From assembly GCA_021234155.1 (NCBI GenBank), contig JAJEKV010000046.1, forward strand, positions 10,988,818-11,052,817: DNA of 64,000 bases, read 5' to 3'. A model generated the notes under the pieces. That model ran no database searches. It saw nothing but the letters and a program-made list of their open reading frames with translations, and had not been told where the DNA came from. The DNA comes from Isoetes taiwanensis. Its lineage: Eukaryota > Streptophyta > Lycopodiopsida > Isoetales > Isoetaceae. Positions 6,803-36,194 of the stretch are shown here, in pieces (the stretch's first letter is position 1; each line of letters starts with the position of its first letter). Both the position numbers and the translations under genes were made by a program.

Positions 6803-7017
6803 ATTAGGTTGGAGGTTTTGCCAAAAAAGCCTTCAACACCTAGGAACGCATTTAAAGGCTTATCCCATCATAGCCCACATGTTTAAGATTACGGCATATG
6901 TATTCCACTAACTAGAATACACACGCGGGAGCTAGAGGCTAACTAAGAAGCATACTAAGCTAACCTCTGGCGAGTCGGGTCGACCAAGTCGGAGGCGACT
7001 TCGCCCATCAAACTCCT

Positions 7018-8390
7018 TCATAAACTCACGGGTATTGCTTCTCCAAATCTTGCTTCAATACCCAAGTTCGTCTTCCGCGGGCAAGTGCTTCCACTTGACC
7101 AAATCTGGAGGCGAGACCTCCTAGTCTTCTTGAATGACTTATCAAAAGTAACTTCGCACAATTTCCACTTGCTCTTAGTCATTTCCAACAAAGTTGGAGT
7201 ATCCAAGACCTCCTGAGGGGTTAGGATTGTGCCTTTTCAATAAACTACGTGGAAAACCTTGTGAACTTTGAGATGGGTAGGAAGATCCAACTTGTAGGCT
7301 TGGGAGCCCACTCTCTCAAAATCTTGAGCGGACCAGCCCACCTAGGGGCAAGCTTCTTGCAACTCCCAATCAAAAGCTTAGCTTGCTTGACCTTGATCTT
7401 TCAACCACACGCTATAAGCCTACCTTGAACTCTCTTACGGTCCTTAGTGTTTGTCGGCTACACTCTTACACTTGGCCTTCTTCTTAACGCTAGGAGGTAA
7501 CCCCTCACTTCTTCCACCAAGCTGCTGCATATCCCCTAGCATCTGTTTGGGACACTTCAACCTTTGACACGGATTGTGCCAAGTGTACGGGGTTAAGCGG
7601 TGCCGTAATTTACCATGAAAGGAGACATGCGGGATGACTTGCTTGGCAGCCTTTGTTGTGGCCCGAATTCCACCAAGTGGATGTACTCATCCCACTTGAC
7701 TGCTTATTCGGACAAAGCTTCTAAGCATGTCTTCAATGATTCGATTTCGTCCTCTCCGATCCCGACCATGCGTTGCGGGGATGATATGCGTGCTCATGGA
7801 GAGCTTCGTGCGAATGGTCTTTGAAGGCGTCCCCGCCAAAAAGCACTCATAAACTTGGAATCTCTATCCGATATTATCTCGAGGCATGCCATGGAGCCTA
7901 AAAATCTCCTTCACAAATAGCTTGGCATTATCTAATCTTTGTGTCGGTAGTTCTACAAGGCACAAAATGTGCCATCTTAGACAATTTGTCTACTACGACC
8001 ATCAATGCATCTTTGCCTCGAAGAGTCTTAGGAAGTCTGTGATAAAATCCATACTTACCACTTCCCATTTTGCATTCGCAGCGCTAGAGGTTCCAAGGCA
8101 CACGGAATTGAAGGCTGCTCCGCTTTTGGTTTCTTTGGCACAACCGACACTCATGCGAATATATCTTGCTATACGCTTCTTCATTCCGGGCGAGAAGTAG
8201 CTTCGCCGAATCTTGAAGTAGGTCTTCATAAAACGCATGCCACGCTATTGGGCTATTGTGTGTGTCATGGAGAATTAGCTTCCTTACCCAGTCGATGATT
8301 CGGGCACACACAACTTATGCTTATGATACAACAAGTTGCCTTCCTTCTTATAATGCTTGAAGGCTTCTCGTTCCTTATCATTCTAGCCTC
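7018..8390 (-). pseudogene. Integrase with C-terminal chromodomain remnant (element D)
   Basis: The - strand reads HDTHNSPIAWH and CRLCQR (H2C2 zinc site), SYFSPGMKKRIARYI and [12 protein letters not shown], the last holding the first catalytic Asp of the core. Downstream sequence is decayed until 7.2-7.02 kb, where VKWKHLPAEDE followed one frame over by TWVLKQDLEKQYP and a stop matches the C-terminal half of a chromodomain. Chromodomains of chromovirus integrases are known to bind methylated H3 tails and steer insertion to heterochromatin. The enzyme is inactive here because of frameshifts. Confidence 0.75.
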
Positions 8391-8391
8391 T

Positions 8392-8965
8392 CTAGAGGCT
8401 TTCCCCATACCTCCTTGAAATCACCATCGGATGGTAGAGTCTCCTCAATTCTCTTGCCATACCCACTCGAAAGAGTTGATATAGCATTACAATATGTTCT
8501 CGTCTCAAGAGGTCTTCTAGAAAGGGCATCGCAACCACATTCAACTTACACGGCTTATAAGCAATCTCAAAGTCATACTCTTCTAGGAATTCCATCCACC
8601 TCCTTTGTCTTAGATTCAGGGTGGTTGGGTAAAGATGTATTGGAGGCTCGGTGATCGGTATCTAAAGCTGAAACTTCCTCCCAAGCAAATAATGCCTCCA
8701 AAAATGAAAAGCCCGACAATAGCTAGAAGTTCACGATCATGGGTTGGATAAGCATTTGCTTTCGGTGTCGTTCAACTTCTTGGAATCATAAGCTATCACT
8801 CTTCCTTCTTGCATAAGGACTCCCACTGTTGCTATCTTACTTGCATCTGTTGCTACTATCTTGTCCTTATGCGGAACTATCCAGTAAGCAGTGTTGTTGT
8901 TAAAGGCCTCCTTAAGCTTTTCAAATGAAGCTTGAACATTTTCTAACCAATGTGTTCTCAATCTT
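8392..8965 (-). pseudogene. Gypsy RNase H and connecting region (element D)
   Basis: The stretch ENVQASFEKLKEAF, KIVATDASKIATVGVLMQEG and VIAYDSKKLNDTE is a canonical gypsy RNase H start, and it retains the TDAS catalytic Asp. Further along, [21 protein letters not shown] is the usual segment between RNase H and integrase. Frameshifts break it. It contrasts with family 1, whose gypsy RNase H lacks this Asp. Confidence 0.8.
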
Positions 8966-8969
8966 TCAC

Positions 8970-9900
8970 CTTAACACTCTTAGTGAGGTCCGTCAAGGGG
9001 GGCCCCTTAGCAAAAGTCCTTCCACGAACTTTTACGTAATAACTTTGCCGGGCCTAGAAAGCTTCTTACTTAGCCACATTCTTTGGGTGGCCAATCTACT
9101 CTTGCCGATCTTTGTGGGGTCGGTGGAGATTCCTTCGCCCGATATGACATGGCCCAAGTACTCCACTCTTTCGGTAGCAAAGGGCATTTGGAGAGCTTTC
9201 CATACAAAAGCGATGCCGCCTCAACTTTTCTAACACCCTTCTCAAATCTGACTACTATGATCTTCAATGGACTTCTTTGTAGACTAGAATGTCGTCAAAG
9301 AAGACAATGACAAACTTCGTCTAGAAAATCCACGAAGGCGTCGTTCATGAGGCATAAAAGTTGCTGGAGCATTCGACAATCAAAGGGCATTCTTGTAAAC
9401 TCAAAGTGACCATACGGCGGCTCGAATGCGGTCTTATGGATATCCTCTTCTTTTATTCTTATTTGGTGGTACCCGACCTCAAATCAATCTTAGAGAATAC
9501 CTTTGCTCCTTGGAGCTGGTCCATTAAATCATCGCCCTTGGCAATGCATACTTGTTCTTTATAAATGCGCTTGTTGGTGGTGATAGTCTATGCACATTCT
9601 TAAGCGCCATCTTTCTTCTTCACGAAGAGTATGGGTGCTCAAAAGGAGACACACTTGCTCTAATAAAACCAAGCTCAAGCAATTCACGGAGTTGCTTCTT
9701 GAGCTCAATCAACTCCGTGTGCTCATCCCGTATGGTGCCTTCTTTGGTAGGCTTAGCATCACGGTGCCAATGTGATCTCACCTCCACACCCTATAAGGTG
9801 GTAGCTGCGGATTTCATCGGGAAATACATCCTTGAATTCAGAAATAAGCCTTGCTCTTGGCTTTGGGCAAGCTGCTTTCCCTTTTGATCATTTCCATCAC
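8970..9900 (-). pseudogene. Reverse transcriptase (element D)
   Basis: On the - strand EEDIHKTAFEPPYGHFEFTRMPF and, one frame over, FVIVFFDDILVY are standard Ty3/gypsy RT blocks; FFDD is the polymerase catalytic box. They are followed by AASLLYGKLSKCPLLPKEWS and a VDWPPKE-like end. Upstream a ELREQLLELG-type segment at about 9.68 kb leads in. Multiple indels prevent a continuous frame. Confidence 0.82.
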
Positions 9901-9989
9901 GCTATTGGGCTCGATTGCCTCAATCTCAAAATGTAATCCACCTTATTTCTTTCTATACTTTTCCTTATTTGCTTCAAAGAAATACCTTT

Positions 9990-10470
9990 GCATAGAAGAA
10001 GGCATCTTCTTACCTCTCACTATGAATTTGGTGCCGTCGGTCTTTGTCATGGCGACTTCATTGCGGTCGCCGATCGATCATGGCTTTTCGGTGGCTTTAG
10101 GAACTCCATTCCTACTATAAGGTCATACCTTCCAATCTCCATGACCTCGCCCCCATCGGCCACTTACTTCCACTAAGGTCTATGTCGAGATGTGATCCTC
10201 CTCCCCTTAGTGTGTGCGAATGGCGCTTGGTTTGCCATAGGTGGCCTTGGCTTAGACTTCAATACCTTGTTCTTCATTAGGGCAGCCAGCCTAGGAGGCG
10301 AAGTTGTGAGAGCTTTTGTATCTATCAATACTAGATATGGACTGCTATCTATGATCCCCTCGGCCCTTAATATGTTGGTGACTTTCAATGTCATCGACTC
10401 AATGTTTGCTGCAGATATGGCACTCACCATCTATGAAGTCACGGGCCTCATCTTTGGTCGTCGTCTTCAT
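9990..10470 (-). pseudogene. Aspartic protease (element D)
   Basis: SPYLVLIDT followed in a shifted frame by HNFAS-like and then PRLAALMKNKVLK matches the active-site region of Ty3 proteases (DTGA or DTGS followed by HNF). A downstream piece at about 10.1 kb reads YDLIVGMEFLK, the usual end of the protease. The domain lies between gag and RT as expected. It would cleave the polyprotein; here the active-site codons are shifted by small indels. Confidence 0.6.
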
Positions 10471-10499
10471 CTGCTTACGTTGGTGAATCCCAATCCATA

Positions 10500-11797
10500 A
10501 GCTCTGCCAAGGCTGCCTGCATGACGAATGGGCAATCATGGGTTGATTGCCCTATTTGGAAGCACACGAAACAAAGCTTCTTCTCAATACATTCTGTCTC
10601 TTCTCTTTTCGTCGGTTTGTCTAGAATACGCTTTAACATGCTGCCCCACGATGCATATTGCGGCTTACGGTCCCCAAAGTTCTTACCACGAGCTCTTCCA
10701 TCTTCTTTGGGGGCCTCGATGGCGTAGTTCTTTGATTGCTTACTCTGTTCTTTGCCCTTGGTAATGTGCAGATTGACTTTCCTTTGAAGGCCGATTGTCT
10801 CTCATCTGGCGTTCTTTGGAGCTTCTTCCAAACTTATGGCTTTATCTCGGCCGCCCAGCGACTTAGGGTTGATTGCTTTCGGACTAGCCTTTTGATATTC
10901 TTTGTTCAATCCCTCAATGTAAGTTTTATTTGCTTGCCTTTCAGGCACTCCAGGAACATGAAGTCTAAGTCGCATAAATTCCTCGTATACTTTGGCCCGA
11001 CAATGTACCACGGTTCAATCTATAGAGGCTATTTGGATCTGCACCGCTAGTATGTGACCTAGGCACATAATGTCTGCTAAAAGCCTTCTTTGAAGGTCTT
11101 GAATACAAGAATGTTCCTTTTGAGCTTGTTGGACTTCGCATAGCCTTTCCACCGATTCTAGCTGCCCTATCAAGTTTGCTGTAGCAACCTTCCCTATGTC
11201 CTTATCCTTCATGCCATAAGAGTTGCCGAACTCTTCCATCTCGTCAAGCCGGGCTTCGCCTCCATACGACCTGTCCTTCCCGAGAACTGACCCAACTTCC
11301 TAGTCTTCCACACATTGCTCATAGCAGCATCAACTTTCTTTTGATAATCATCTTCCTTCCTTGCCACGGCTCTTACGTGGAGTGTCGGACTCACTTTCGA
11401 GCTAGAGCTGTCATGGTATGCGAAGTGTCGATGAGTTGGAGCTAGGTGGTGTTGGACTCCTTGTTTCTCCTTTTTCCTCTTCACGTCTCGACATTCCCTT
11501 GATTGTCCTGCCCCTCTGCTATGGACCTTCCTCGATGCCTTCTTTGAGGTAGCGGTGGAGGTGGTGGTGGAGCGGTGCATATTCTTGGGCATTCATCAAT
11601 GGGGTGGCCCGGTGGATCAGGTGATGCATCGGTTCCTCATCATCCGGGCCGAGCCTTGCGTTGATTGCTTCCGCGTCATATCGATCGTTGTTGTCATCTT
11701 GATCCGTCCAAATAGGTTTACGGGTACCCCTTGGTGGTGTCGGCCTTGACCTTGGGAACTGAGCTGTGTTCCTTTTGCTGCAAGGATTAATCATCAA
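10500..11797 (-). pseudogene. Gag (element D)
   Basis: The - strand carries YEEFMRLRLHVPGVPERQANKTYIEGLNKEYQ, a Ty3 gag pattern, at about 11.0-10.85 kb. It is preceded by a low-complexity N-terminal region (11,797-11,209) rich in His, Pro and Arg. A degenerate zinc knuckle with CFVC and THDC is seen at about 10.57-10.53 kb. Gag forms the particle and binds RNA. Frameshifts divide it into at least four pieces. Confidence 0.6.
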
Positions 11798-12092
11798 TGC
11801 TTGTTATTAAGTTACGGTATTGATTTTTGCTTACAATTAAATTGTTTGTTAGGTACAAAAGAAATCATATGAAAATTCCACTTACAAGTCAAGATCATGG
11901 TAAGACATTAATTAGTATTTAGAAATACATTTCATGAGTTACATGATAATAGCGAAAAGAGAGTTACAATACACTTTAATTAATTAACAAAACAAGTCTT
12001 CCATCAACGATGTCGCTTGAAGAAGTTCTTGATTTTCTTGAATCCTGTGCCCTTGCCCATGTTACCGCGGGATTACGGCGCCCGATCCTCCC

Positions 12093-13518
12093 TCAATGCT
12101 CTTGCCACTGTGGTCTTTGGGAGTTCAGTGCGATTGCCACCACTTGCGACAAGTCGCATCCCGAGGTGGCCCCTTGAAGTCGAGGGGCATGAAGGGCTAC
12201 AAATCTTTTGAAGAGAATCACATGGTCCATCCCGAAATCTATCCTGGCGTGGTGTCCAAAGCCTGAGAGTGCTATGAGGAGCGCCACGGATTCTTCACCC
12301 CTTGGGCTGAACTCCTTGTGGAAGACTATCATCTGTCCTTGGCTAAGGGCCGGAAGATAGTACCGAAAGTGATTTTACCCCCAATGCGGCCCGTGGCTCC
12401 CGTACTCTTCCCTTGAGCCGCCTCGCCGAACACATCTATTGCGGTAAGATCTTCGTGGTCTCTCCACATAGTTGTTGCGTTCTCCAAATTGATGCTGCTA
12501 GATGATTCACGCATGCTCATGGAGCGCACCGGTCGGCTTGAGCTTGGGCCTCTTCCCGGCTTGTACAACACGCTTTGGATCTCACGGAATTCCTCTTACG
12601 GAATGTCGGGTTCTTCTTTGTTGGAACATCTGCCTTATCGTTGGTATGCACAGATGTCCGACATAGTTTCCCTAGCGTAGGAGTGTCGATCTCGGCTACC
12701 TCCCGTGGAATCTCTTGGTAGGAGTAGTCGATGAAGTCACTACCCTGCTCTTGTGCCATAAGGCTTAGGAGCTCATCGATCCTGAGGCCCTCCTCTCGAC
12801 AATAGGGAAGATTGAGGATATCGGTGGCGAATATATACTCCTCGCCGTCGATGATCACCGGGGTGAGGGCCGTGATACCCATTGGTGGCTCGAAATCCCG
12901 CCTTAGTGCTTCCTGTTGTTGAGCTAGACGCCTCTCCATCCTTCTTGCCTCCCTCATCTCCCAACTTGGGTTCTCTTCCTCCTCCTCTTCGTAATCTGCT
13001 CAATGCACGCAACATAGGTGCCCGATGTGGAGCCGTAATGCTCGTCTGCCAGTAGTCTCGATCTCATGGATGCTTATCTGGGCTGCCCGAGTGTCGAGAG
13101 GTGCCAAATCCAAAGGTTGAATTGACGGCTCCCCCGGTTGGTTAACTGCCCTATACTGCATGAACAATGCTAAGGCTGCTTGGCTTGAGAGGTACCTATG
13201 CCTATGATGCTTACAGGTCATGTAGTCTGGCATGTTTCTGGTTCTATCCCACAGCTTGTTCTTGCCCCTGGATCCCCCACCTATGGCTTGAGCAAGAGAG
13301 TCTAGAGAAACCCATTTCCCTCCCCTAGGTGGCAAGCTAACTTCCGAGGGCGTAATTTTGCGATCATATTGGCAAATGATGTCAGTGTAGTAAGGAGTTC
13401 TGGTCAAAGTGGCATGAAGATCAAAGAGATGATCGAAGACATGAAAGGCTTGCTCCGCAGGGAGTTCACGGATGTGATTAGAGTCATTGTACCATCTAAC
13501 AAAGCTTGATGGCGCCAT
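12093..13518 (-). pseudogene. Unknown ORF between H3-like ORF and gag in element D
   Basis: I do not recognise this protein. From ATG at 13,518 (MAPSSFVRWYNDSN) the frame stays open to a TGA at 13,000, then continues in the same frame through ADYEEEEEENPSW and a basic coiled-coil-like stretch (EARRMERRLAQQQEAL) to about 12,520. A shifted frame then carries FRYYLPALSQGQMIVFHKEFSPRG to about 12,100. Read together it would be about 450 residues: a globular N-terminal part, an acidic/basic middle and a second globular part. ATG 13,518 was chosen because a TATA-like box lies about 110 bases upstream, although the frame is open further up. It may be an extra retrotransposon protein or captured host sequence. 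Confidence 0.5.
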
Positions 13519-13626
13519 TGAGCAGAGGTGGCTATAAAAATGGCTGATGGAAATAAGCAAAGGCCTAGGAAATCGCCAAAGGGGCTGAGAGCAGTTCTGA
13601 TGGGGAGAAAATAACAAATGAGGGCC

Positions 13627-13635
13627 CTTTTTATA
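13627..13635 (-). promoter_or_regulatory. TATA-like box upstream of the unknown ORF
   Basis: The - strand reads CTATAAAAAGGGCCC about 110 bases before ATG 13,518, followed by a C/T-rich leader. This is a typical plant core promoter arrangement. It suggests the ORF has its own promoter and does not depend only on the LTR, which is inference. Confidence 0.45.
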
Positions 13636-13811: not shown

Positions 13812-14096
13812 CGAAATCGGGTGGCGTCGCGAGAAATAGCTCTGCGTCGAGGGGGCCAGATGAGCGGGTTTTTAAGCGATGCGACCCGGTTTCGGGTCAT
13901 TTCTATTCCTATGAAAGGTTTTTGGGAATTTAAACATCCTAACATGACTTTTCAGCATGCTTCTAACCTAACTAGCAACTTTTCTTACTTAAATTGGACA
14001 CGTATTAGTATCAAAGTGCCGAAATCGGGTGGCGTCGCGAGAAATAGCTCTGCGTCGAGGGCGCAGATAGGTTTTTCGCGATGCGACCCGGTTTCG
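13812..14096 (-). repeat. Two direct copies of an 80-nt hairpin-forming repeat
   Basis: Copies lie at 13,812-13,894 and 14,020-14,096. Each begins with CGAAATCGGGTGGCGTCGCG and ends with GCGATGCGACCCGGTTTCG on the + strand, which pair with each other as an imperfect stem of about 18 bp. The second copy has an inner stem TCTGCG...CGCAGA; in the first copy the inner part has changed. They lie in the gap between the H3-like ORF and the unknown ORF. No protein is predicted across them. Confidence 0.75.
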
Positions 14097-14304: not shown

Positions 14305-15398
14305 TCAAGGGTATTCCTTGCGGATGCGACGCGCCAAGTGTATGTCCTTGGGCATCAAGGTCACCCTCTTCGCGTGGATCGCGCAGAGGTTCCCTTCCTC
14401 GAACAACTGGGTGAGCTCGGCCTCAGCGGCCACCTGCAGCACCCGAGTTGTGAGCGACGTCACCCTGTAGTCGGTGACGAACTCCTGCATCACCTCCCGC
14501 ATGAGCCGCTCGAACGGTGCCTTCCTAATCAGGAGATTAGTGCACTGTTGAAAGTGCTTAATCTCCCGGAAGACACGGGAGTGTATCGAATTAGGCCCGT
14601 GATGGACCTTCTTCGGCTTCTCCGGTGGTGGTGGCGGTGGCTTGGGCTGGTTCTTCTTGGGTCGGCCCCCCTCCACATAGCGCTCCACATTCTGGCGACA
14701 GTACCAGTCATTATACCTCGTCCATCCAGCGAGGTATTCTGAAATGCATGCTTGAAGGCGGCGTTTGAAGAGTCTGTCCTCCTTCAAGGCGAAGGATCGC
14801 TCACCTGCCTTCTACTTCTTGACCACCTTAGGTGGCTTGGGCCACTTTGGGTAAGGTGGTCTAGCGTCGGGGTTTGAGGGTTCCCCGGCGCGCTCGTCCT
14901 CCTCGTTTTCTTCCTCTTCGACCTCCTCTTCTACCTCCTCCCGCTGCGGTTCTTCAATAACGACGGTCTTGCGAGGCCGGTCGTTCCTTCTCTTCGTTCT
15001 TCTCTCCTGCTCCCTCAGCTCCCGTTCTCTCTCCCTCTTCTTCCTTGCGGCCCTCTCTTCTGGCCACTCCGTAACCTTCTCCTTGCCCTTCTTCTTGGGC
15101 ACCGAAGGGCCTGCCTCTTCAACTTGCTCTTCAACCTGCTCTTCCACCTCGGTGTCCGAAGGCCAGTGGCCGGGATTCTCGGTTCTCACGGGTGCTGGCG
15201 ATGAAGAGCTACTGCTAGGTGCGTCCTCCTCAGCGTCATGTAGGTTGCGTCGCTGCTGCTGGAGGGAAACTCCTCTTCCCCCTTCTTAGGTCGGAGGTGC
15301 TCCGGGATTTTCTTCGTATGGCGTCCCGCTGCTACCTGCGCCATCGAGAGCGTGGGTTGCTCGCCGAACTTCCTAGCTGTCTGTTTGGTGCGAGCCAT
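14305..15398 (-). pseudogene. Divergent histone H3-like ORF with long charged linker, inside element D
   Basis: ATG 15,398 starts MARTKQTARK, identical to the first nine residues of mature histone H3, including K4 and K9. Residue 10 is Phe, not Ser, and the rest of the tail differs. After a frameshift around 15.2-15.3 kb the frame runs through a Ser run, a KR-rich stretch, a long Glu-rich stretch and a Pro run. A single in-frame TAG at 14,812 lies before a complete H3 core: [20 protein letters not shown] (alpha-N), [38 protein letters not shown] and [12 protein letters not shown], ending KEYP. The core has canonical spacing without the longer loop 1 typical of CenH3. Total length would be about 364 residues against 136 for normal H3. 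It is the first ORF after the primer site of element D. The two breaks make this copy probably inactive. Confidence 0.85.
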
Positions 15399-15485: not shown

Positions 15486-15498
15486 GATATTTAAAGAG
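15486..15498 (-). promoter_or_regulatory. TATA-like box upstream of the H3-like ORF
   Basis: The - strand reads CTCTTTAAATATCCCTG about 95 bases before ATG 15,398, followed by a C/T-rich leader. Position and context match a plant TATA box. The unknown ORF downstream has a similar box at a similar distance from its ATG. Confidence 0.45.
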
Positions 15499-15950: not shown

Positions 15951-15964
15951 TGGCTCTGATACCA
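15951..15964 (-). other. Primer-binding site for initiator Met tRNA (element D)
   Basis: The - strand reads TGGTATCAGAGCCA, the standard plant LTR-retrotransposon primer site complementary to the 3' end of initiator methionine tRNA. It lies one base after the end of the LTR. This fixes the element's orientation (- strand) and shows that the LTR to its right is the 5' LTR. Confidence 0.9.
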
Positions 15965-15965: not shown

Positions 15966-17610
15966 TGTGACGCTCCCTGCTAAACATACGGCGCCCAGCC
16001 GTACACTTGGCAGGAAATCCCCCGTCCAGGCTCATCAACCGCGACGGGCCCTCGTCTATCCCCACTTTCGGAATCCTCAGAGTAGAAAGCGGAAGGGGAC
16101 ACTGAAGGTGTCTGGCGCCCTTCCCCTATGGGCTCCTATCACGCCGGAAGCATAACACGTCGAGAACTAGCAATACAATACAATATGCTACCTCGAGGGG
16201 GTAGCTCAATCGCTTATATCCATAGATGCAAAGAACATAATCATATGCCATAAAACATGAGAGGTCCTAGGTGGCTCGGAACCACTAAAGGAAGTTGACT
16301 CATTTGGATAGGCCTCAAGATAGAGCAGATCGAATCATAACAATGGCGGGGCTGGCATAAGACAATGGCTAGGGTTGACCACTCCATCCGCTCCTCCTGT
16401 GCATACTTTGCAGATGGGCTAGATCAAGGCGTGGCATGACTCTAACCTTGGGATCACGCAATCCCATGGCATCACCCATAGAGACTACTCGGGTTGCATC
16501 TCCCGGGTAGGACGAGGTAGGAAGGGTTGCATCTCCCCTTCCCGGGGTCTAGAGGCTCCACGGGCGGCTAGAGAATCATGGCGGCACACGATTCGTACCC
16601 AACTGAACCCCCCAAAACAAGAGCCAAGCTGACACTTGCAACTCTTGAGAGGCAGGGCGACACCATTGCCCCAGGAGGTGTGGGACCCATGCTCGGCCCA
16701 CGAAGTGGACCGACCATAAGCCCTAGCCCTTGTGGGATCCCCCGAAGCCCCCACTCGGCAGGGATCCACCCCCCATCTTGCCTCTAGCCCCGTTGTGTGG
16801 TGCTGAGTCACATCATAGCTTCCATAGCCCGGTGGGTTCCTATGCACAGGCCGCAACTAATAGGAACTAAGGGATCTACACTAGGAGCATACTACATATG
16901 GCCCTAGGTCTCTACCCCCCTTCCCCATACAAGAGGAGCAGCATGATCAACCCATATCACATATATCACATCATGATCAATACCAACATCATATGAACAT
17001 CTTAACCTAATCATACATAGCTAACTAACAGTTAGGGTTCCTTGGTTAGGGTTCAAGATGTTCAACAAAGGATCTAGGGTGGCTCTACTCTAGATACGAA
17101 TCACTAACCCATCACGGAGGGCTATCTTCGGATGACTAACATGAACTCTACTCAACCTACCTCCTCGAGGCGCTTCCTCCCATTCTGGCGTCTCCATGCT
17201 CCTCGGCGTGGTTGAAGGTTTGCTCCCTCACGATCATACACACCTTCCGAGGGCTGCTCGGCTAGATTATGACGAGCGGTGCTTTCAAAGCGGGGTTTCG
17301 GGCACGTGGATGAGAGTTCAGGTGCTAGGTCAGAGAAAAGGGTCTAGGGTTAGGGTTAGAGCTCATATAGGTGTGGGTCCACGTGGGATGCCACGTGGCA
17401 CCACTAAGATGAGGCCGTGTGGCGGTTGCCCAATAGGATAAGGCCATGTGGAAATGGGCCTTATCCTAAGGTTATCTAAGTTAAACGATTAACTTAGATG
17501 TGCACCCCTTGCCACTTATCCAAGGCATACAAGGCTACCTAGGTAGACTTGTATGGTGGCGGGTCCAGGAATATACGTATTTATGGCGTATATTCCCTTG
17601 GAACGTCACA
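15966..17610 (-). repeat. 5' LTR of element D
   Basis: On the - strand it starts TGTGACGTTCC at 17,610 and ends GGAGCGTCACA at 15,966. These are terminal inverted repeats matching at 10 of 11 positions, with the TG...CA ends expected of an LTR. The end abuts the primer-binding site after one base. Length is 1,645 bp. No matching 3' LTR was found in the window, so LTR-LTR age cannot be estimated. ACTAA at 17,611-17,615 would be the outer flank. Confidence 0.82.
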
Positions 17611-23274: not shown

Positions 23275-23976
23275 CAATGAATTCAGTTGATTTTGCCAAG
23301 AACGGGCCGGAACATAGCATTTTGAAAAAGGGGAATTGTTCTCAGATAAATTTCAAGGGCTTTGGGCGAGAGAATCGATCAACACTGCTCATTTTGAGAC
23401 CAGTTTTGAAGGACTTTAGCTTGAATATGCCTTTCAAGCTTCATCCATGGATTACCTGATGCTACTGTCTTATTTGCTATTTTGAAGAATGATTTGATCC
23501 TGTACCCAAGACCACAGAGCTTGGGAATTTGACTTATTGAAATGAATGAAAATCCGACCCTTGGTGGCATATCTGAGTTTAATTTGCACTCTACTTTCAA
23601 AACAAGGTAAAGCAATAAGGTAAAAATGAAATTTAAAGGTTAAATAGTTTATCTTAAGCTCGTTGTGAACTAGATCTCGTCATATTCTGCTCTACAGATT
23701 TAAATTCCACATCACAACTAGATTAAGTTGCATTCAGAGTATATCAACACATATATCTAAGAGGTTTAGTGTTTGCAAATAGATCAAGTGCATTTGCAGA
23801 AAACAGTCCATCTGGGAGAGAGGACAAAAAGATGGAAAAAACATAAAGAGAGCATTCTTAACTTGCCTGATTATAGTAATCTTGCTTGTTTTTGCATTTC
23901 TCAAGTCAAAAGATTTGCATTCTCAAGTTTATAGCCGCACTTCTAATCAAACAAGCAGTCCTTCCATATTTACAGA

Positions 23977-25570
23977 CTCCAGATCACTTAAGGTGATCAG
24001 TCTACACAAGAATTTTTCAAAGAAAAAGCTCAAATATCAAGTATTCATACCTTTCCCGATTTAAGAATATGGAACCTTCACTTAAATCGATGTAGTTCTC
24101 ATAGGTGGATTGATTTTCAAGGTCAAATGATTGTGACTTATGTAGAAAAGTTATAGGCATGCAAGGAAAAAGATCTTGACCAAGTCTGAGTTCTAGTTTG
24201 CAAGATATTCGATCTCAAAGTTGAGTCAATTTTTGGTCAATACCAGTCAAAGCCACAGATAGATCTCAGAATTTTGTAACTTGATTTGTAGAGGGAATTT
24301 TTGAGAAATTCCAAAAGTGAGATGAAGTATAGGTCCCAAAGGTGAGGGGCATGCAATCAAATCCTATTTTGGATCACTAAAACTATTTTTTTGGCACTGT
24401 TTTGTGAGTAACAGTCTAAAATTGTATCAGACAGAATGCAAAAAATGATAAGTAGAGGTTGGAATGGTTTTTTCTCGAGCTTTTTGTGCACACAGGCGCA
24501 AATGTGATGAGAAATGAGGGGCAAATTGTCATATGCAAGAAAAAATGATGAAATATCTTACTGTAAAAATGTTTGTATGGCAAAAATACTAAAAGATCAT
24601 GACAGTCAATTTTCTAAGCATTTGGCAGGCAATTTTCATTGATATGAAGGTAATACAAGATGAATATAGGTCTCAGGATCATAAGTCAATCATCAAAATA
24701 TCTCAGAAGGTCATATAATAATTTCATAACAGGAATATCAGTCCAATTTTCTCAAATCGAACTGTGGAATGCTCAGATATCAGATCATGCTCAGCATGTA
24801 TCAATGTTGAGGTTTGATGCGTCTGGGCCTTCAAAAACTTCTGTAATTGTTTTCCCCGGTATATAGATTTGGATTTGATGATTCCGGCATCTTAGGACTT
24901 AATTTTAGGCTTAATGAGATGCTTATGAGCGGAAATCCAAGAATAGATAGTTTTTATAGCTTAGGAATCCAATTCCGGCGTGATTCGAGCAAGTTTCCAG
25001 ATTTAGGGTTGCCCAACCGTATTTTTCCTGAAATTTCGCGATACGGTGGCCATATTTTTGGGAGTATATACTCGGAATATGCTGTATTTCGAAATTTTGA
25101 AAAGCTAGACTATGGTTTAAAAGGTGCCGTATAAAATGGTTAAGAAGTTTTTGATCATTTGAGGCAATGGCAACCCTAATTTTTTGGGAATATGCTAGGT
25201 CTAGATACCATGCTTGGAATATTCCATGGGGTATATGGGTAACATGGGTATTTAAGGCACAATGGTGGGCAAAGCAAAATGGGTATAAGAAATTTCAAAC
25301 AAGAATTAGACTAGGGGTATTTGCAAAGGTGTGACATGGGGGATAAGAATGAAAAAAAAGGATATGAAATGGGAAGATCATCTTTTGAGAGGGGCAAAAG
25401 GCATTAGGAAAAAAGAATTAGGCAAACATGGTGTGATTGGCAAAGAAAGTGAGCAAGGGGGAGTATAGATATAAGGGAAATATGACTAGAAAAATGTCAA
25501 AATGGGGGTAAGAATATGGATAAAAATGACTAGGAGGTGGAATCAAATACCATGGGGTCTTCCAAACTTT
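23977..25570 (-). repeat. 3' LTR of copy B
   Basis: It matches 31,914-33,527 base for base over long stretches. One difference is an extra 14 bases in the other copy near 32,716. It includes the hairpin at 23,982-23,998. The match ends at CCAAACTTT on the right. The left copy may extend to about 26,080, where the - strand reads AGGGGTGCCACTTCC (a purine run followed by TG); in that case the right LTR has lost its first 0.5 kb. Confidence 0.85.
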
Positions 25571-25599
25571 TGGGAATGAAAACAAGAATAAGAAGTCTA

Positions 25600-25833
25600 A
25601 ATGGATAGCAGGACCACTTATGGCAGATGAATAAAGATGGAGAAAGGATGCACCTGTCATGGAAACACGCAAACAAGTTAATCTTGATCTTTGCAACTCT
25701 GCCATGATGGTGAAGCTGAATTTGCAGAGTGCACATTTAGGGAAATAAAATGAGGAATACATGGCTAAATGGAGGGCAGGACCACAATGAGACAGATGAA
25801 TGAGGATGGAAGAAGGGTGCTCCTACAAATGAC
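25600..25833 (-). repeat. Duplicated 65-bp segment next to the 3' LTR of copy B
   Basis: 25,600-25,662 and about 25,767-25,833 share AATGGA, GGCAGGACCAC or GCAGGACCAC, CAGATGAAT, GATGGA and GGGTGC-type words in the same order. The duplication lies between the 3' LTR match and the integrase ORF. Between it and the integrase (25,834-26,213) I see no gene. Confidence 0.6.
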
Positions 25834-26213
25834 ACTTGACAATTAATGAAAATCCTTGTCCTGGAGTTGTTTGATAGTTCATCCTTCATACTGGCTAACT
25901 GTAAACATAAACTCAATGAAGACATTAGTTCTAAATTTAAGACAAAGTGAAATCTAACCTATCTAATATTTAACTTTAATTCTAACTTGTCTAAGTTCTA
26001 GAGCATAAAAAGGGACAAGCATATATGCTGATCCCAGTACCTTTTCAGGTGGATAGTGTTGATAGGATTTGGAAGTGGCACCCCTGAAGTTAATTCCTTT
26101 AACCAATAAGAGTTGGTGCCTGCAGGTTCCAACACCTCATAGGGACCCTCCCAAAGATTTTCAAACTTACTAGCTGAGTCTTCCCTTGATTTATTCCATT
26201 TCAGAACTAACTC

Positions 26214-27176
26214 TCATGTCTTGAAAGTCCCCTGTATTTTATGAGCAGCTTTGAAAGAAGCCAAATCCTTGGCTTTTTTAAGCAGATTAGCATTCTCAGC
26301 TTCCATCCTATATTCCTCTAAATGCAGAAGGGTATCCAGTCTTTCCTGCAAGGCATATTCAAAAGGCAAACATAACTTGTGGGCTAACCTTAGAGATGGA
26401 AGCTCAAGCTCTACTGGAAGCACAGCTTCAATGCCATATACTAAGTTAAAGGGTGTATGAGTGGTTGCTGCTTTAATGGTGACTCTATAAGCCCATAGAG
26501 CATCCACCAGTTCGACATGCCAATCCTTTTGATTGTCATCCACTGTTTTCTGCAAAATGCTTTTCAAAACTATGTTAGTAGCTTCTGCTTGACCATTACC
26601 TTGGGGATAGTAGGAGGAGCTTTTGGTATGTTTGACCTTAAGAATAGTCAACAAATTAGTGATAACTTCATTCACAAAGGGAGTACCTCTATCAAAATGC
26701 AATTGTAGAGGAATGCCAAACCGTGCACAAATATATTCATGTAAAAACTTTGCTGTTGTAATAGCATTAGCCTGTCTTAAAGGAATTGCTTCTGCCCACT
26801 TGGTAAAATAATCTGTGGCTACAATAATGTGCTGATGTTGTCCTGCAGAAGGGGGGTTAATAGGGCCAACATAATCCAGTCCCCAAATTTGGAAGGGCCC
26901 TGGAGAAATGATAGGATTTAATGCAGCTGGGAGAAGGATCCTTTTGCCAAATATTTGACACTTGTGGCAAGATTTTATAGCAATATAACAATCTTTAAAT
27001 ATTGTAGGCCAATAATAACCTGACCTGAAAATTTTCTTAGCAGTAGTATCTCCAGCAAAATGGCCTCCACATACTCCTTCATGCATTTCTTTAATGATCA
27101 GAGCAGATTCTTCTTCATTGACACACCTCAGTAATAGTCCATCCCTGTTGACTTTACATAGAACATCATTAATCAT
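26214..27176 (-). CDS. Integrase of copy B
   Basis: A single open frame of 320 codons. Residues 20-75 form the H2C2 zinc domain (EMHEGVCGGHFAGD, then SCHKCQ). The DDE core follows with WGLDYVGPI, FDRGTPFVNE and PQGNGQAEATN, so all three acidic residues are present; the second lies in FDRGT instead of the usual SDNGT. ELELPSLRLAHKL and a coiled region finish it. It inserts the element's cDNA into host DNA. The frame is separated from the RNase H ORF by a stop and frameshift at 27.2-27.35 kb. The GPY/F-type C-terminal module seen in copy A is partly in the sequence beyond the stop (26,213-26,110). Confidence 0.9.
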   Translation of the reverse strand: MINDVLCKVNRDGLLLRCVNEEESALIIKEMHEGVCGGHFAGDTTAKKIFRSGYYWPTIFKDCYIAIKSCHKCQIFGKRILLPAALNPIISPGPFQIWGLDYVGPINPPSAGQHQHIIVATDYFTKWAEAIPLRQANAITTAKFLHEYICARFGIPLQLHFDRGTPFVNEVITNLLTILKVKHTKSSSYYPQGNGQAEATNIVLKSILQKTVDDNQKDWHVELVDALWAYRVTIKAATTHTPFNLVYGIEAVLPVELELPSLRLAHKLCLPFEYALQERLDTLLHLEEYRMEAENANLLKKAKDLASFKAAHKIQGTFKT

Positions 27177-27346
27177 TTTAAATTGCCTACATTTTTCTTT
27201 AAATCTCCTTTACTGGCTCGAAGTCAGTCCTGAGGGCATCTCCTTGAATTGTAAGAAATTTTTTATAGGTAGCTGCCAATCCTGTGGGTTCTGCTTTTCA
27301 TCTTCTGCCTGCAAATAAGCTAAGGCATCCACAAAGTCAACAACCT

Positions 27347-28840
27347 CTACTGCATCCTCATGATCAAAGAAAATATAAGTAAATAAAGACTGGGACTCTT
27401 CACCTGATGTAACTCCTTAATGGAAATATCAAAGGTTTGTAGCTTACAAGCCCACCTTTGAATTTTTGGTTTGGAAGTAGCCTTACCAAATAACAACCCC
27501 ATTGGATTTTTCTTCATATAAACTTGAACAGAACTCTTCAATAGTAGGTGACCTTGTCTGTCAATGAGGAACATAAGAGCAGCAGCACTCTTCTCCATTC
27601 TAGTGTATTTTTCTTCAGTTGAACTCCACTGTTTGCTGGCAAAAGCTATGGTATGCTTGTCCTGTAGAATAGCTAGACCTATGGCCTTTTTAGTGATAGT
27701 AATAAAAACATCAAATGGCATATCCAAATCAGGCTTTTTTAAAAGAGTAGCCTCACAAATGGACTTTATAAGTAACTCAAAAGACTCTTGGCAATCGGAT
27801 GACCATGTGACAGGGACATACTTGCTCTCAGATTTAGAAATCTTGCCTATTCTTGTCAATTTGGAAATAGGACTTATAATGTGAGCAAAGTTAGGAATAT
27901 ACATCCTAAGAAAACTAGTCATGCCAATAAAACTTTTGACCTGCTTCAAATTCTTGGGGGGTACCAGTTTTTTGAGGGCTTCAACCTTTTCTTGTGCCAC
28001 TTGTATACCATTGTTGGACACTTCATGCCCCAAAAGTTGCCCTTTGGATGCAAAAAAAATACATTTCTTTGGGTTGAGGTTGACTCCAGAGTCTCTGCAC
28101 AAAGAGCATATTTTTGCAAGCAATTCCAAATGATTAGTAGGGTGAGATCCTAAGCACAGGTCATCCAAGTAAACTCTGAATTCTTGAGGAGACATAGGCC
28201 TAAAAATAACATCCATAGCTCTCTGGAAAGTGGCAGGTGCATTCATTAATCCAAAAGGCATTCTTTTCATTGCATAAGTTCCCCAAGGGGTAATAAAAGA
28301 GGTTTTTGGTTGATCCTCTTCCTTAATGCTAATTTTATTAAATCCTGAGAATCCATCTAAGAATGAGTACACCTCTTTTCCTGCTACATCATATAGAATT
28401 TCTTCTAAAAAAGGCAAGGGATAGCAGTCTTTGATGGTGGCTTTGTTGAGATCTCGGTAATCAATGCAAATTCTTAAGGCACCACTCTTTTTTTCTACAG
28501 GTACAATGCAAGATACCCATTCTGGATTAATAATTTCAATAATAACACCTGCATCTAGCATTTTATCCAACTCATCTTTGATTAGTCCCATTAAGGAAGC
28601 ATTAATTCTTCTCAGTTTTTGAAAAACAGGTTTACATCCTTCTTTAATTTTAATTTCAAATTGGCAAACCTCAGTTTTGATACCAGTAAGCTCAGAATAA
28701 TCCCAGGCAAAGACATCCTTCCTTTCTACAAAAAACATTTGTATGTTTTCCCTATTTTGATATTCAATCAAATCTCCAACAAATAGGGTTCTAGTCTTAC
28801 CATTTTTTCGAGGAAAAACCCTGACAATAATGGGATCACT
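27347..28840 (-). CDS. Reverse transcriptase and degenerate gypsy RNase H of copy B
   Basis: The frame is open for about 500 codons. The RT part has LFVGDLIEY, DVFAWDYSELTG, ALRICIDYRDLNKATIKDCY, YAMKRMPFGLMNAPATFQ and VYLDDLCLG (intact YLDD). The RNase H part reads FDVFITITKKAIGLAI, IAFASKQWSSTEEKYTRMEKS and VYMKKNPMGLLF. The catalytic Asp of the TDAS motif is Thr-Lys here, and the Asp of the TDH motif is missing. Copies A and C show the same losses. The protein therefore probably relies on the upstream aRNH for RNA cleavage. The open frame extends upstream to 29,032 through inserted sequence. Confidence 0.9.
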   Translation of the reverse strand, partial: SDPIIVRVFPRKNGKTRTLFVGDLIEYQNRENIQMFFVERKDVFAWDYSELTGIKTEVCQFEIKIKEGCKPVFQKLRRINASLMGLIKDELDKMLDAGVIIEIINPEWVSCIVPVEKKSGALRICIDYRDLNKATIKDCYPLPFLEEILYDVAGKEVYSFLDGFSGFNKISIKEEDQPKTSFITPWGTYAMKRMPFGLMNAPATFQRAMDVIFRPMSPQEFRVYLDDLCLGSHPTNHLELLAKICSLCRDSGVNLNPKKCIFFASKGQLLGHEVSNNGIQVAQEKVEALKKLVPPKNLKQVKSFIGMTSFLRMYIPNFAHIISPISKLTRIGKISKSESKYVPVTWSSDCQESFELLIKSICEATLLKKPDLDMPFDVFITITKKAIGLAILQDKHTIAFASKQWSSTEEKYTRMEKSAAALMFLIDRQGHLLLKSSVQVYMKKNPMGLLFGKATSKPKIQRWACKLQTFDISIKELHQVKSPSLYLLIFSLIMRMQ

Positions 28841-29238
28841 AACCAATGCTAGGTCCAAAAACATAATAGATCTTGTACCCTCATGCTGACTAGCCTTATT
28901 GGGTGAAAATACATCACAGCAATGAAGTTGCCAAAGACGACACATGTTTGAATTGTTTTCTCCATTGATCTTCATCTTGTGCCTCGAATCCAAAGCTCTC
29001 GTCCAAACAGCCACGCTAAACCCTGCATACACAAGAAAGCCGAATAAGCAGGAGGGATGGGGGGGCCAAAATGTACGAAGGAGAAAGGGGAGATGCGAAT
29101 GAGAGCTGATAAGGAAGCAATGAACGAAAAAGAACTTAAATAAGGTGCTAGAAGGGGAAAGAACAAAAACTAACTGCTAACTACCTTCGTAGTTCTAGAA
29201 CTTTGTTTTCCTTCTATTCGGTGAAACGAAGGAAAACA
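28841..29238 (-). other. Inserted segment of about 0.4 kb between aRNH and RT of copy B
   Basis: In copies A and C the linker after INAS/INAN runs directly into the VGD motif of RT. In copy B about 400 bases separate them. On the - strand the segment has CCTTATTTAAGTTC (TATA-like), a long C/T-rich tract, TGTGTATGCAG (acceptor-like) and then an open frame of unknown origin (CRLWQLHCCDVFSPNKASQH) that fuses in frame with RT. It may be a captured promoter/exon piece. I do not recognise the protein. Confidence 0.55.
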
Positions 29239-29259
29239 TCATTCAGTGCTCTTTTCTTC

Positions 29260-29725
29260 TGATGCATTGATGGTTAGGATAGGACAAAGTTCTTTTACCT
29301 CACTAGCATCAAGATCTTCCTCTGGAATGGCTCCTTCAGTTAAATGTGACTTGAGAGTTTCTCTACATAAGGCATCAGCTTCCACATTTTTCTCCCTTGA
29401 TATGTGAGTGATTTCCCATGAAGCAAAACTTGAAAGTACTCCCATTACTTGGTTTTTTAGGAGCTCCATATCTGCATTTTTTGTTTGGTCCTGAAACTTG
29501 TCTACAAATCAATTTGAATCACCATAAATGTGAATGTTAGCAATATCCATAGCTTTAGCCTCCTGAAGACCTGCAATCAAAGCCTTATATTCTGCTACAT
29601 TAGATGTGACTTGGGGAAAGATTCTTCCTACTTTAGCTAAGAGTTTGTGAGAAGAATCTTTCAAAATAGCATCAGATGATGCAATATTTAATTTTTTAGA
29701 AATACCTCCATCAAACCATAAAAAT
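29260..29725 (-). pseudogene. Archaeal/plant-type RNase H (aRNH) of copy B
   Basis: The domain starts FLWFDGGISKKLNIASSDAI, with the first Asp in FDGG. NVAEYKALIAGLQEAK holds the Glu and IHIYGDSN the second Asp. After one in-frame TGA at 29,509 it continues KFQDQTKNADMELL, WEITHISREKN and VEADALCRE with the last Asp. All four acidic positions are present. This is the RVT_3/archaeal-type RNase H fold. It follows the protease in the same frame and precedes RT, an order confirmed in copies A and C. Only the TGA interrupts it. Confidence 0.85.
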
Positions 29726-29729
29726 CCTG

Positions 29730-31128
29730 ATGGTCCTTGTCTGCTGGGGAGTGCACATTCCATAATAAGAGGAACCATTTCACATTTTCTTGGTCTTGTA
29801 TTTTTTATCCTGTAAGACCCCAAAGGTTCTTCAATCAGCGTTTCCTTAATAAAGTTTACCTCTTCTTTGGAGCCATAGGAGCCATCTTGATTATAAATTG
29901 TGGCAGTTTGAGAGCCATTGGAGATGGTACATCTCCCTTGAGACCAGACTGGCCTAGCATCCATAGTGGCTAACCATCTTCTCCCTAGAAGTAGATCATA
30001 GATGTCAGACTCATCTCCTATATCTTCAAAAGCCACTACAATGAAGTTGGCAGCTACAGTTATGCCCTCTGTATTGACAGGCACTTTGGTTACCACACCA
30101 ATAGGGGTAATTTTAGCATTATAAAAAGATCTTAATAATATAGAAGCTTTCTTGTCCACCTCGAAACCACATTTTTTCATAATGTGATATGGCATGATAT
30201 TTAGGGGGGATCCCCCATCAAGTAACACATTCGAGAAGGTATAACCTCCTAAAGCAGCTGAACATGTGAATGCCCCAGGATCTTCTTCATTCTGTGCTAG
30301 AACAAGGTTAGTGGCATCAATAAAATTCACACAAGCATTTAATACCTCACCACCAGTTTGCTGCAGTACTCTTTTTCTATAGCTAGGTGCAATTTTTAGC
30401 AATGTGAAAAGATCCACACTTACTTTGGAGTTTTTGAGCAAAACATCAACTTCATCACAGTCTTGATCTTTCTTACCATACTTTTGCTGTGGAGGTGGAG
30501 CTATCATTTGAGCAGGTGATTCCACTGTAGGTGGTGAAGATCTAGCAGTGGAATGTCTACTTGACTCAGTATGCACATGAGCTTCATTCATGCTTCTAGT
30601 TTGCACCACCATAACTTCTTCAGCTTTGGGAACTTCTGTAGCCTGAATAAATCTTATAGAGGTACTTGGCTCAGCAAATCTCACAGGAGGTTTAGGCTCT
30701 GGTCTCTTTTCTTTTTCCTGCTTAGCAAAATATTCCTTAACAGCACACCTAACATCAGTATGGCCAACTTCTTTACAAAAAGAACAAACAGGACATTCCT
30801 TTCCAAAGTGGCCTTTTCTATTGCATTTGGGACACACTTGCCAATAGCAAATTTCTGATGGATGAGAATTCCTATTGCAATGAATACATTCAGGGTAAGT
30901 TTTACCTGTTCTTGTAGCCCTGAGTTCGACCAATTGTTTGGTTAGTTCTGCTAAAGCTTCAGTAACCTTAGATAGGTCTGATTTGACCTCTGCAACTTGA
31001 GAATTAGCTTCCTTTTCTTTAGATTTTTTTTTCTTTCTGCATGGCAGAAACTGGAATGGAAGAGTGATGATCGTAATGTGCATCAGTAGCATCAGGGTAA
31101 AAAGGATCATGGCTATGGTGAGAAACAT
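29730..31128 (-). CDS. Gag C-terminus, three zinc knuckles and protease of copy B
   Basis: A coiled segment (KSDLSKVTEALAELTKQLVE) is followed by three CX2CX4HX4C knuckles: CIHCNRNSHPSEIC, CPKCNRKGHFGKEC and CSFCKEVGHTDVRC. A variable Pro/Ser region follows, then the protease with VLLDGGSPLNIMPYHIM (active site DGGS), FIVVAFEDIGDESDIYDLLLG and RRWLATMDARPVWS. The protease matures the polyprotein; DGGS in place of DTGA or DSGA resembles the Tat-like branch of plant Ty3 elements. The frame connects to gag through a one-base shift in an A run at about 31,027-31,034 and runs on into the aRNH. Confidence 0.85.
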
Positions 31129-31899
31129 GATGCTTGTCAGGCAAAGTAGAGAGCATCTGAGTTAGGTCAGTGGTTTTGGCAAAAACTTTGTATATAGAAT
31201 CAAATCCTTCAGCAGCTTGGAACTTGAGCAACTTCCTTTGGATATCTGATCTTCTTTCCAAACCATTGATGAAAGCAGTAACTAAAAAAAGGGTTGGGAT
31301 TGTGACTTGTGCTCTTTGGCACCTGCTCATAAATGTGCTAAACCTTTCCTTGTACTGATTCACACTTTCTCCTGCATGTATAGAAAAACCTTGCAACTCA
31401 TTAACCAAATATTTTGGAGCAGCTAAATTACCAAATCTATCCAGGAACTTCTTGACGAGTTCATCCCATGAAGTGGTACCCATTAACTTCTCATAAGTTA
31501 ACCAAGCACCAGCTTCACTCTCTTCTTTGAAACATTTTTCAAACTCTGAAAGCTTGCAGCCTTTCTTGAAACCATAATCCCTGTAATAATCCTCAAATAT
31601 TCTCAAAAATTGTTAGCACTCATAGTGGAATCAAAAGTAGGCAAAGGAACAGGAACATTCAACTCGAATTGGTATGACATGTTTTGAAGCAGGCTAGTTG
31701 AGAAACTTGAAGGCAATGGCCTTTCTCTGCAATGATCTGGTGCATCAATATCTTCTAATGGTTCTTGTTCTGCTGGAAACTTTTGCTTTGGAGCCATGAG
31801 TTCTGAAATCCAGGAATATCTCGGTAGTACCTCCAAGATGTTGACCCTCAACCTGGCTAGAGAGTCAAACACAAGAAGCCAACTTGAATTTATGCTCAA
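31019..31899 (-). pseudogene. Gag of copy B
   Basis: Two overlapping frames (31,899-31,603 and 31,606-31,019) encode the N-terminus (LMAPKQKFPAEQEPLED) and the capsid core (AGAWLTYEKL, SWDELVKKFLDRFGN, LQGFSIHAGESVNQYKERFS, FINGLERRSDIQRKL), a pattern typical of plant Ty3 gag. The frame change is at a run of five T, consistent with loss of one T. A likely start is ATG in ELMAPKQKF. Gag assembles the particle and packages RNA. Disruption by one-base changes in homopolymers leaves open whether the source element is active. Confidence 0.8.
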
Positions 31900-31902
31900 G
31901 TT

Positions 31903-31935
31903 GGGGTTAGAACCTCCAGATCACTTAAGGTGATC
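31903..31935 (-). other. LTR-end hairpin and primer-binding-like site of copy B
   Basis: Reading the - strand, GATCACCTTAAGTGATC (31,935-31,919, 6-bp stem, CTTAA loop) is directly followed by TGGAGGTTCTAACCCC (31,918-31,903). The position, just inside the 5' LTR and before gag, is where a primer-binding site belongs. The matching tRNA would end GGTTAGAACCTCCA; I do not recognise that tRNA. Confidence 0.65.
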
Positions 31936-33527: not shown

Positions 33528-33765
33528 GTCTTCCAATCTTCAAAAAGCATCTTCCAATCTTCTCAACCCAGAATCTCATAAAGCATCCTTTGACTACCTT
33601 TGACCTCAAATAGAGTACCTTCCATGGGAGTTGACCTTGAATATTGGTGTAGACCCTTGAAGATTGATGTTGTTTGACCTTCACATCAATGTTGACTACC
33701 AAGCTCTTTTTTATTTGATTTTTCCAAAATGACTTGACCTAACTTTAATACATGAACCAACAGTT
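33528..33765. other. Unassigned spacer between copies B and C
   Basis: About 240 bases rich in TTGACC, TCTTCCAATCTTC and similar words. It holds no gene. It may be remains of an LTR or leader of copy C. Confidence 0.4.
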
Positions 33766-33768
33766 AGT

Positions 33769-35770: not shown

Positions 35771-35789
35771 TGCCTCTCTAGATCAAATC

Positions 35790-36190
35790 CCTGCATATTT
35801 ATGGTTTGATGGTGGAGTGTCCAAGAAATTAAATGTGGCTTCTTCTGCTGCTATAGTTAAAGATAATTCTAACAAATTATCGGCTAAAGTTGGCAGGGTC
35901 TTTTCTAACATCACCTCTAATATGGCTGAGTACAAAGCTCTCATTGCAGGATTACAAGAAGCTAAACACCTTGGTATTTCTAACTTAGTTATATTTAGAG
36001 ATTTCCAATAGGTATGCAGGCAAATCCTAGGAGAGTATCAAGCAAAGAATGAGGACATGATCACACTAAGAGATTAAGCTTTGAAGGAATTATCAACCTT
36101 TGAGTCTTGGAATCTGCACGTGCCAAGGAAGCTTAATGATGAAGCTGATGCAGAAGTGTCCTGCTTGAGCATCTAGCTGAGGGAGCCATT
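35790..36190 (+). pseudogene. Archaeal/plant-type RNase H (aRNH) of copy C
   Basis: The frame reads YLWFDGGVSKKLNVASSAAI (first Asp), NMAEYKALIAGLQEAKHLGI (Glu) and VIFRDF, where GDS has become RDF but the Asp is kept. After stops, LHVPRKLNDEADAEV holds the last Asp. It lies between protease and RT, as in copies A and B. It is inactive here. Confidence 0.82.
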
Positions 36191-36194
36191 AAAG

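Follow-up and report, generated by a model that had tools for sequence, protein, structure and literature searches.

A chromovirus with hundreds of copies in the genome of Isoetes taiwanensis carries, as its 5' gene, an open reading frame (ORF) for a protein derived from histone H3. The ORF recurs at the same place from copy to copy, its frame is often intact, it is under purifying selection, its affinity is to H3 and not to CENH3, and most of its DNA-contact and H3-H3' positions have been kept. Taken as a whole, the explanation favoured here, that a high-copy chromovirus has a conserved, H3-derived 5' gene whose protein would pair with H4 and blunt silencing, is given a probability of roughly 0.55.

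The element and its proteins

The copy described here, element D, lies in a window of 64,000 nt, the whole stretch of DNA that was analysed. Its LTR, primer-binding site (PBS), H3-like ORF, ORF2, gag and pol are all on the minus strand and follow one another in that direction (Table 1). Its inverted LTR ends, TGTGACG/CGTCACA, are short, as in a chromovirus; sibling copies have LTR matches at the corresponding place (query 15968-17609), and a search within the 64-kb window found no 3' LTR of this copy. The PBS 12-mer, which we take to be of the tRNA-Met type, is exact in the window and in 33 of the 40 copies read. In 28 of the 30 complete copies, which are related, a TATA-like site is found as a motif match at -95 to -100 from the H3 start, and a similar sequence, TATAAAAAGGG, stands at 13625-13635 (minus), about 117 nt upstream of the start of ORF2; the two sites are possible internal promoters. 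Between the H3-like ORF and ORF2 (13812-14096), a GC-rich stretch occurs twice, 208 bp apart, with the potential for an imperfect hairpin.

Table 1. Features of element D in the window (positions counted from the first nucleotide of the window)
Feature	Position	Strand	Remarks
5' LTR	15966..17610	minus	ends TGTGACG (17610) and CGTCACA (15966)
PBS 12-mer TGGTATCAGAGC	15953..15964	minus	exact match, directly after LTR
TATA-like TTTAAATA	15488..15495	minus	motif match, ~96 nt upstream of H3 ATG
H3-like ORF, ~363 codons	14305..15398	minus	broken by one frameshift and one TAG
H3-tail start MARTKQTARK	15369..15398	minus	translation
Histone-fold core, H3 residues 49-135	14308..14568	minus	PF00125, gap-free alignment
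ORF2, N-terminal two thirds	12520..13518	minus	in-frame stop 13002-13000
ORF2 end, then decayed gag region	10200..12519	minus	CCHC knuckle ~10478-10801
pol remnants (RT/RNase H/integrase/SH3_Tf2-1), decayed	7000..10200	minus	Pfam on pieces
Chromodomain remnant	~7021-7236	minus	homology to sibling copy L012

The ATG at 15398 opens MARTKQTARKFGEQPTLSMA, and the frame runs to 14305 with a frameshift near 15231-15237 (the exact placement is our own) and an in-frame TAG at 14814-14812. The protein consists, in order, of MARTKQTARK, a charged, proline-containing linker and a gap-free H3 fold. Its C-terminal 160 residues match PF00125 at 8.4e-31 in Pfam and the H3 chains of the PDB at 6.1e-30, and from R49 to the end the core is identical to H3 at 55 of 87 residues without a gap. 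Only residues 1-9 of the H3 tail can be recognised, the canonical positions K14, K18, K23, K27 and K36 being unrecognisable, and the DNA gate has lost R40, Y41 and R42. In one sibling (L010), 48 K/R and 54 D/E are found among the 229 residues of the linker. An AlphaFold model made with a tandem-H3 alignment as input was poor (mean pLDDT 47.8). The preliminary description of this DNA, made from the letters alone, had proposed an ORF with the exact first nine residues of H3 and a full, divergent core, interrupted by two breaks only and standing first after the primer site on the same strand, and all of this is borne out. Its charged, proline-rich linker also stands, but not the length of about 200 residues given for it, the distance from tail tip to core being nearer 250.

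An ORF2 of about 505 residues accompanies the H3 module. It is 504-507 residues long in siblings (L014:4401-5912; L019:4041-5561 minus) and gives no Pfam match above cut-off, no PDB match and no protein-database match at E<=10. Its dN/dS is 0.12 over the first 157 residues, as measured in the seven copies with that stretch unbroken.

The assignment to the chromoviruses rests largely on siblings. The gag pieces of the window copy have no Pfam match, and Ty3_capsid and Retrotrans_gag were recognised in the homologous region of L014 and L023; in these two copies gag is followed by PR-RT-RH-INT, the Ty3/gypsy order of chromoviruses. Three of the eight pol pieces of the window gave matches (RT_RNaseH_2 at 6e-10, Integrase_H2C2 at 8e-6 and SH3_Tf2-1 at 0.0025, the last below its cut-off). 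The chromodomain, broken in the window copy (LVKWKHLPAED), is found in L012 (PF00385, 1.7e-11) with SH3_Tf2-1 (1.1e-23), as at the C-terminus of a chromoviral integrase. The siblings thus supply the gag, RT, RNase H, integrase and chromodomain implied by the earlier claims that the H3 ORF lies inside a chromovirus and that element D carries a chromodomain remnant. With plant chromoviruses (Ty3/gypsy, Metaviridae), the family has in common the layout of LTR, PBS, gag, protease, RT, RNase H, integrase, SH3_Tf2-1 and chromodomain; unlike them, it has >4 kb from the PBS to the gag capsid region, with the H3-like ORF and the ORF2 of some 505 residues in between.

The further proposal that this chromodomain is of the kind that reads methylated H3 is weakened. 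In L012 and L021 the cage positions read I/W/L in our own alignment to the HP1 cage (which we take to be Y24/W45/Y48), the printed alignments being without the first site, and on this reading only the tryptophan of the three remains. Type II chromodomains are described, in the portions available of two papers, as lacking the first and usually the last cage residue (PMC6317226; PMC3059260), and their partner is reported there as unidentified (PMC6317226). As the same partial source finds cage-bearing chromodomains in non-seed plants, club-mosses included (PMC6317226), some Isoetes elements may keep a full cage.

Other features of the window lie apart from element D. A separate Ty3/gypsy element, probably younger, occupies 23970-33405 (minus), with long direct repeats about 7.95 kb apart that are 96-99% identical; facing it at 33700-37400 (plus) is another decayed gypsy element with about 40-70% protein similarity. 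A pyrimidine-rich low-complexity stretch at 57013-57774 is open in three frames, and a tandem array with a period of 57/58 bp (61563-62249) lies beside ORFs at 60611-63998, one of which has, by eye, a bZIP-like basic stretch.

Recurrence, integrity and selection

The I. taiwanensis genome was searched with 160 residues from the window copy, which comprise the core together with the part ahead of it, and a first look yielded 10,428 candidates. The best 150 of these were scored, and all 150 match at E<=3.7e-83 with 81-99% identity, 128 of them free of internal stops. Taken from the segment that precedes the core, a motif of 26 bases has 345 exact occurrences genome-wide against 0 for the reversed control, a count that should be a floor because the window copy itself does not fit the motif. 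Forty of the scored copies were read, 20 at 10 kb and 20 at 3.5-4 kb, the choice leaning to long open frames and a spread of identity.

LTR, leader and H3 ORF stand in order in 18 of the 20 copies read at 10 kb: 17 were found by script, and L012, whose 3' LTR the script had taken as its LTR, was added from an alignment that shows the 5' LTR too. Of the other two, L017 is without an LTR match, and L021 matches neither LTR nor leader. ORF2 and gag are also in order in 14 of the 20 and pol in 12; the window segment labelled gag starts with the end of ORF2, and in all 14 the match extends well past that part. The gap at the LTR-leader join is 0-1 bases in 17 of the 18 ordered copies and 14 bases in the other (L028). 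Between leader and H3 ORF it is 0 in 10 and 2-67 in seven; for L025 the alignment took in no more of the H3 ORF than its later part. Both LTRs (1537 of 1617 aligned bases identical, 95.05%) are present in L012, from which internal deletion has removed most of gag and pol; this copy, the one tested for a target duplication, is flanked on each side by ACATT, a duplication of 5 bp. The H3 ORF has therefore transposed as part of an LTR element. The preliminary description had foreseen homologues between the same LTR/PBS and gag in other elements, and many copies have them; the outcome it had set against itself, that no second element carries the ORF, did not occur.

Seen alone, the window copy looks like a one-off host H3 pseudogene nested in an element, or an assembly artefact. 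The likelihood of this is negligible: a nested pseudogene or single insertion is ruled out by the 150 matches out of 150, by the LTR-leader-H3 order and by the ordinary H3 genes of the host, which, at 96-98% identity to plant H3, form a group of 15 clearly set off from the other matches of the same search.

In 30 of the 40 copies the frame begins with M..[TS]KQT and is uninterrupted up to its stop codon, giving 360-385 residues (median 370). In the other 10 the frame is broken or replaced upstream, and a clean core of 87 codons is missing in four of the 40. N-termini could be located in 39 copies by alignment of the leader, the motif playing no part. Among these 39, A1, R2, T3, K4 and T6 are each present in 38, Q5 in 37, and R8 and K9 in 36; position 7 is A in 26 and Y in 10, and serine at position 10 is absent from all 39.

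Pooled Nei-Gojobori estimates over the 30 complete ORFs give a dN/dS of 0.068 in the core, over a synonymous divergence of 0.82, and of 0.072 for residues 1-10, as against 0.156 for residues 11-41, 0.144 for the linker and 0.123 for the segment before the core; tail tip and fold are therefore the most constrained parts measured. Codon changes relative to the window core number 34 synonymous and one non-synonymous in L020, 34 and four in L023, and 41 and 11 in L026. These values come from copies ranked by similarity to the 160-residue piece with open frames favoured, and this way of choosing tends to bring up copies that are intact and resemble the window. Although the query itself covered neither the tail nor the greater part of the linker, both were measured in the copies it had selected, and an ORF counted as complete when it ran open from the start motif. 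In these copies the frames of ORF2, gag and pol are often interrupted, and no claim is made that H3 is better kept than they are. In a neutral simulation of a single copy, run on the window ORF, the probability of no stop was 0.16 and that of the observed similarity in replacements 0.076. On the codon comparisons, in which ascertainment bias is possible, the H3 ORF is under purifying selection and is a conserved gene of the element, not a one-off retrocopy; the dN/dS of the core across copies had been proposed beforehand as a check, and its value indicates such selection.

Could the ORF be a retrocopied H3 carried as a passenger, without function? Broken frames are indeed common, being found in the window copy and in 10 of the 40 that were read, and the extra ORFs of plant LTR elements are, in the part of the survey available, heterogeneous and of open function (PMC6317226). 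This reading is nonetheless very improbable, given the low dN/dS of the core at such synonymous divergence and the ratios of 34:1 and 34:4 against the window, which contradict it short of a strong ascertainment bias.

Pairwise distances in H3 and ORF2 agree (rho 0.83), whereas the agreement between LTR and H3 is poor (rho 0.35 over 55 pairs, from the 11 of 20 loci passing length limits). L010 and L015, for instance, share their LTR at 95%; for L013 and L015 the figure is 92% in the H3 ORF and 81% in the LTRs. From the two correlations, the 5' H3/ORF2 module seems to have been exchanged among subfamilies of the element.

The kind of H3 and a second family

In 36 ungapped cores the commonest residue is that of H3 at 12 of 14 DNA-contact positions, at 13 of 14 H3-H3' positions and at 19 of 27 other positions of the fold. 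The window copy by itself has the H3 residue at 24 of its 27 DNA-contact or H3-H3' sites and at 30 of the remaining 60 (P 0.0004). A gap-free fold with these contact residues is that of a histone H3. Conservation at the sites shared by H3 and CENH3 is weak (P 0.02-0.04).

Plant CENH3 has in common with the element H3 the MARTK start, a divergent tail and some core residues (HFQ, TNLL, TLM), but the element H3 is without the longer loop 1 of CENH3, and tree and identity place it with H3. The window core is identical to H3 at 55 of 85 residues and to three CENH3/CENP-A proteins at 40-45 of 84-85, and no CENH3-type loop-1 insertion is present in the family core. In the tree, the window copy and 19 siblings, the 20 family rows included, group together as a single clade (100/100) that is separate from plant CENH3. 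Loop-1 length, identity and tree rule out an origin from CENH3, the comparison being with three CENH3/CENP-A proteins and, in the tree, with plant CENH3. This was the tree placement called for in the preliminary description, and the core groups with H3.

An origin as a processed copy of a host H3 gene is likewise contradicted by selection and by the identity of the core to host H3, which is 56 of 87 (one host H3 core, read in part); the close match to one host H3 with random decay, named earlier as an outcome that would count against the element gene, was not what was found.

A benefit to the host has also to be weighed, in which the element would have amplified a host chromatin gene selected for the host's sake, for example as a centromeric or germ-line H3 variant. 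Plant CENH3 also starts with MARTK, six of the 30 core changes match the residue of one of the three CENH3/CENP-A proteins, and the genome holds a second, dispersed family of H3 fusions (below). Domestication is improbable all the same: the loop-1 insertion is lacking and the identity to H3 is the higher, hundreds of matches are dispersed, the ORF follows LTR and leader in 18 of 20 copies, and the poor agreement of LTR and H3 distances looks as if the module had moved among element subfamilies.

Searched against 5.8 billion proteins, the H3-like protein gave 3,272 matches; among the matches listed (the best 120 of the 3,272), the 16 examined were either H3 genes in tandem or fusions of H3 with other histones. 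With the linker region as query no match was obtained at E<=10, and IMG/VR yielded none that could be confirmed.

When the genome was searched with canonical H3, 135 of the best 150 matches belonged, by identity and coverage, neither to the 15 host genes nor to the family of element D. They are 71-86% identical, start at residues 3-36 and contain stops in six of the 135. The one that was read, L049 (L049:1-1396; C1044:6216100-6217495), has a frame of 463 residues in which about 290 residues of unknown sequence are joined to ...QRKPHRFRPGTVALREIRK and a full H3 core, identical to host H3 at 74 of 87 positions. A 409-residue query from L049 gave 12,410 candidates, the best 102 of which, when scored, match at 77-100%; 83 of these span the whole query and 68 are without a stop. 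The N-terminal part of this second family (group 2) shows no similarity to ORF2 or to the linker of the family of element D (group 1), and group 2 likely lies in a retroelement. The clade of group 1 joins the group-2 row weakly in the tree (81/58), a join that, if real, would point to one capture and not two. The preliminary description was right to place an H3 ORF in a chromovirus, but it missed both the ORF2 that travels with the H3 module and this second fusion family.

Silencing, known systems and significance

The course of events proposed here begins with a Ty3/gypsy chromovirus that would have acquired an H3 gene, not recently, keeping the first nine tail residues (ARTKQTARK) and the whole fold while some 250 charged and proline-rich residues replaced the rest of the tail. 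The protein would pair with host H4 and either enter chromatin or compete for entry. Since its tail is without a recognisable S10, K14, K18, K23, K27 or K36, its K4 and K9 would engage or sequester the enzymes and readers of H3K4/K9, and silencing of the element would be blunted during its life cycle. The mechanism that fits best is interference with silencing based on H3K9 or K27 by a variant or decoy H3, because K4, K9, R2, T3, R8 and the interface are kept and those other tail positions are unrecognisable; as a step that goes beyond the sequence, it is held at somewhat under even odds. A wider proposition is likewise put forward at less than even odds: LTR retrotransposons would carry and conserve their own H3, which a single lineage may have acquired on two occasions, once with the ARTKQTARK tail and linker (group 1) and once as an almost host-like H3 behind an N-terminal part of about 290 residues (group 2), and would use variant nucleosomes, or a K4/K9 tail decoy that for want of S10 could not be phosphorylated there, as a counter-defence against heterochromatin silencing.

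The protein might instead have an architectural role in the particle or pre-integration complex, where basic fold and linker could cover the cDNA and condense it, or bring it to the chromatin of the host and so target integration. The linker is basic as well as acidic, most DNA-contact positions are kept, and the ORF stands first after the PBS, followed in order by gag in 14 and also by pol in 12 of the 20 copies. Such a role is rather unlikely, as it leaves unexplained both the constraint on ARTKQTARK, as tight as that on the core, and the kept H3-H3' interface, and the chromodomain of the element keeps, by our reading, one of three cage residues.

The H3-derived counter-defence protein favoured here has partial parallels. 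Bracovirus H4 and the histones of giant viruses are viral histones, in which, as in the present family, a mobile or viral genome encodes a host-type core histone with a changed tail; those belong to DNA viruses, whereas here an LTR retrotransposon has kept the tip of the H3 tail and replaced the rest. Maize Bs1 and similar LTR elements capture host genes and so hold host coding sequence inside their LTRs, as this family does, but here the captured gene is under purifying selection over a high-copy family. Ogre, Retand, Athila and SIRE have, like the H3-bearing family, an extra ORF besides gag-pol. A survey of 8,453 Ty3/gypsy and 5,410 Ty1/copia plant elements considered extra ORFs among other things, and the most prominent domains it names in the portion available are the plant mobile domain, Transposase_28 and Athila ORF-1 (PMC6317226). 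Histone is not among these prominent extra-ORF domains of Ogre/Retand/Athila/SIRE-type elements in its main text, where the word 'histone' occurs once (PMC6317226). No retrotransposon with an H3 gene was found in the literature covered, seen in part and with preprints and most subscription journals outside its scope. The H3-bearing family is a gene-capturing chromovirus, and what sets it apart is that the captured gene is a conserved core histone.

Histone H3 is what transposon silencing marks. The conserved tail tip and fold suggest that this element produces its own chromatin protein, perhaps as a means of resisting host silencing; if that is true, the element supplies chromatin and is not only its target. 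Such a family would offer a natural, testable system for anti-silencing, for the function of H3 variants and for gene capture by plant retroelements, and H3-like open frames in genomes of this kind could be mis-annotated as host histones or CENH3.
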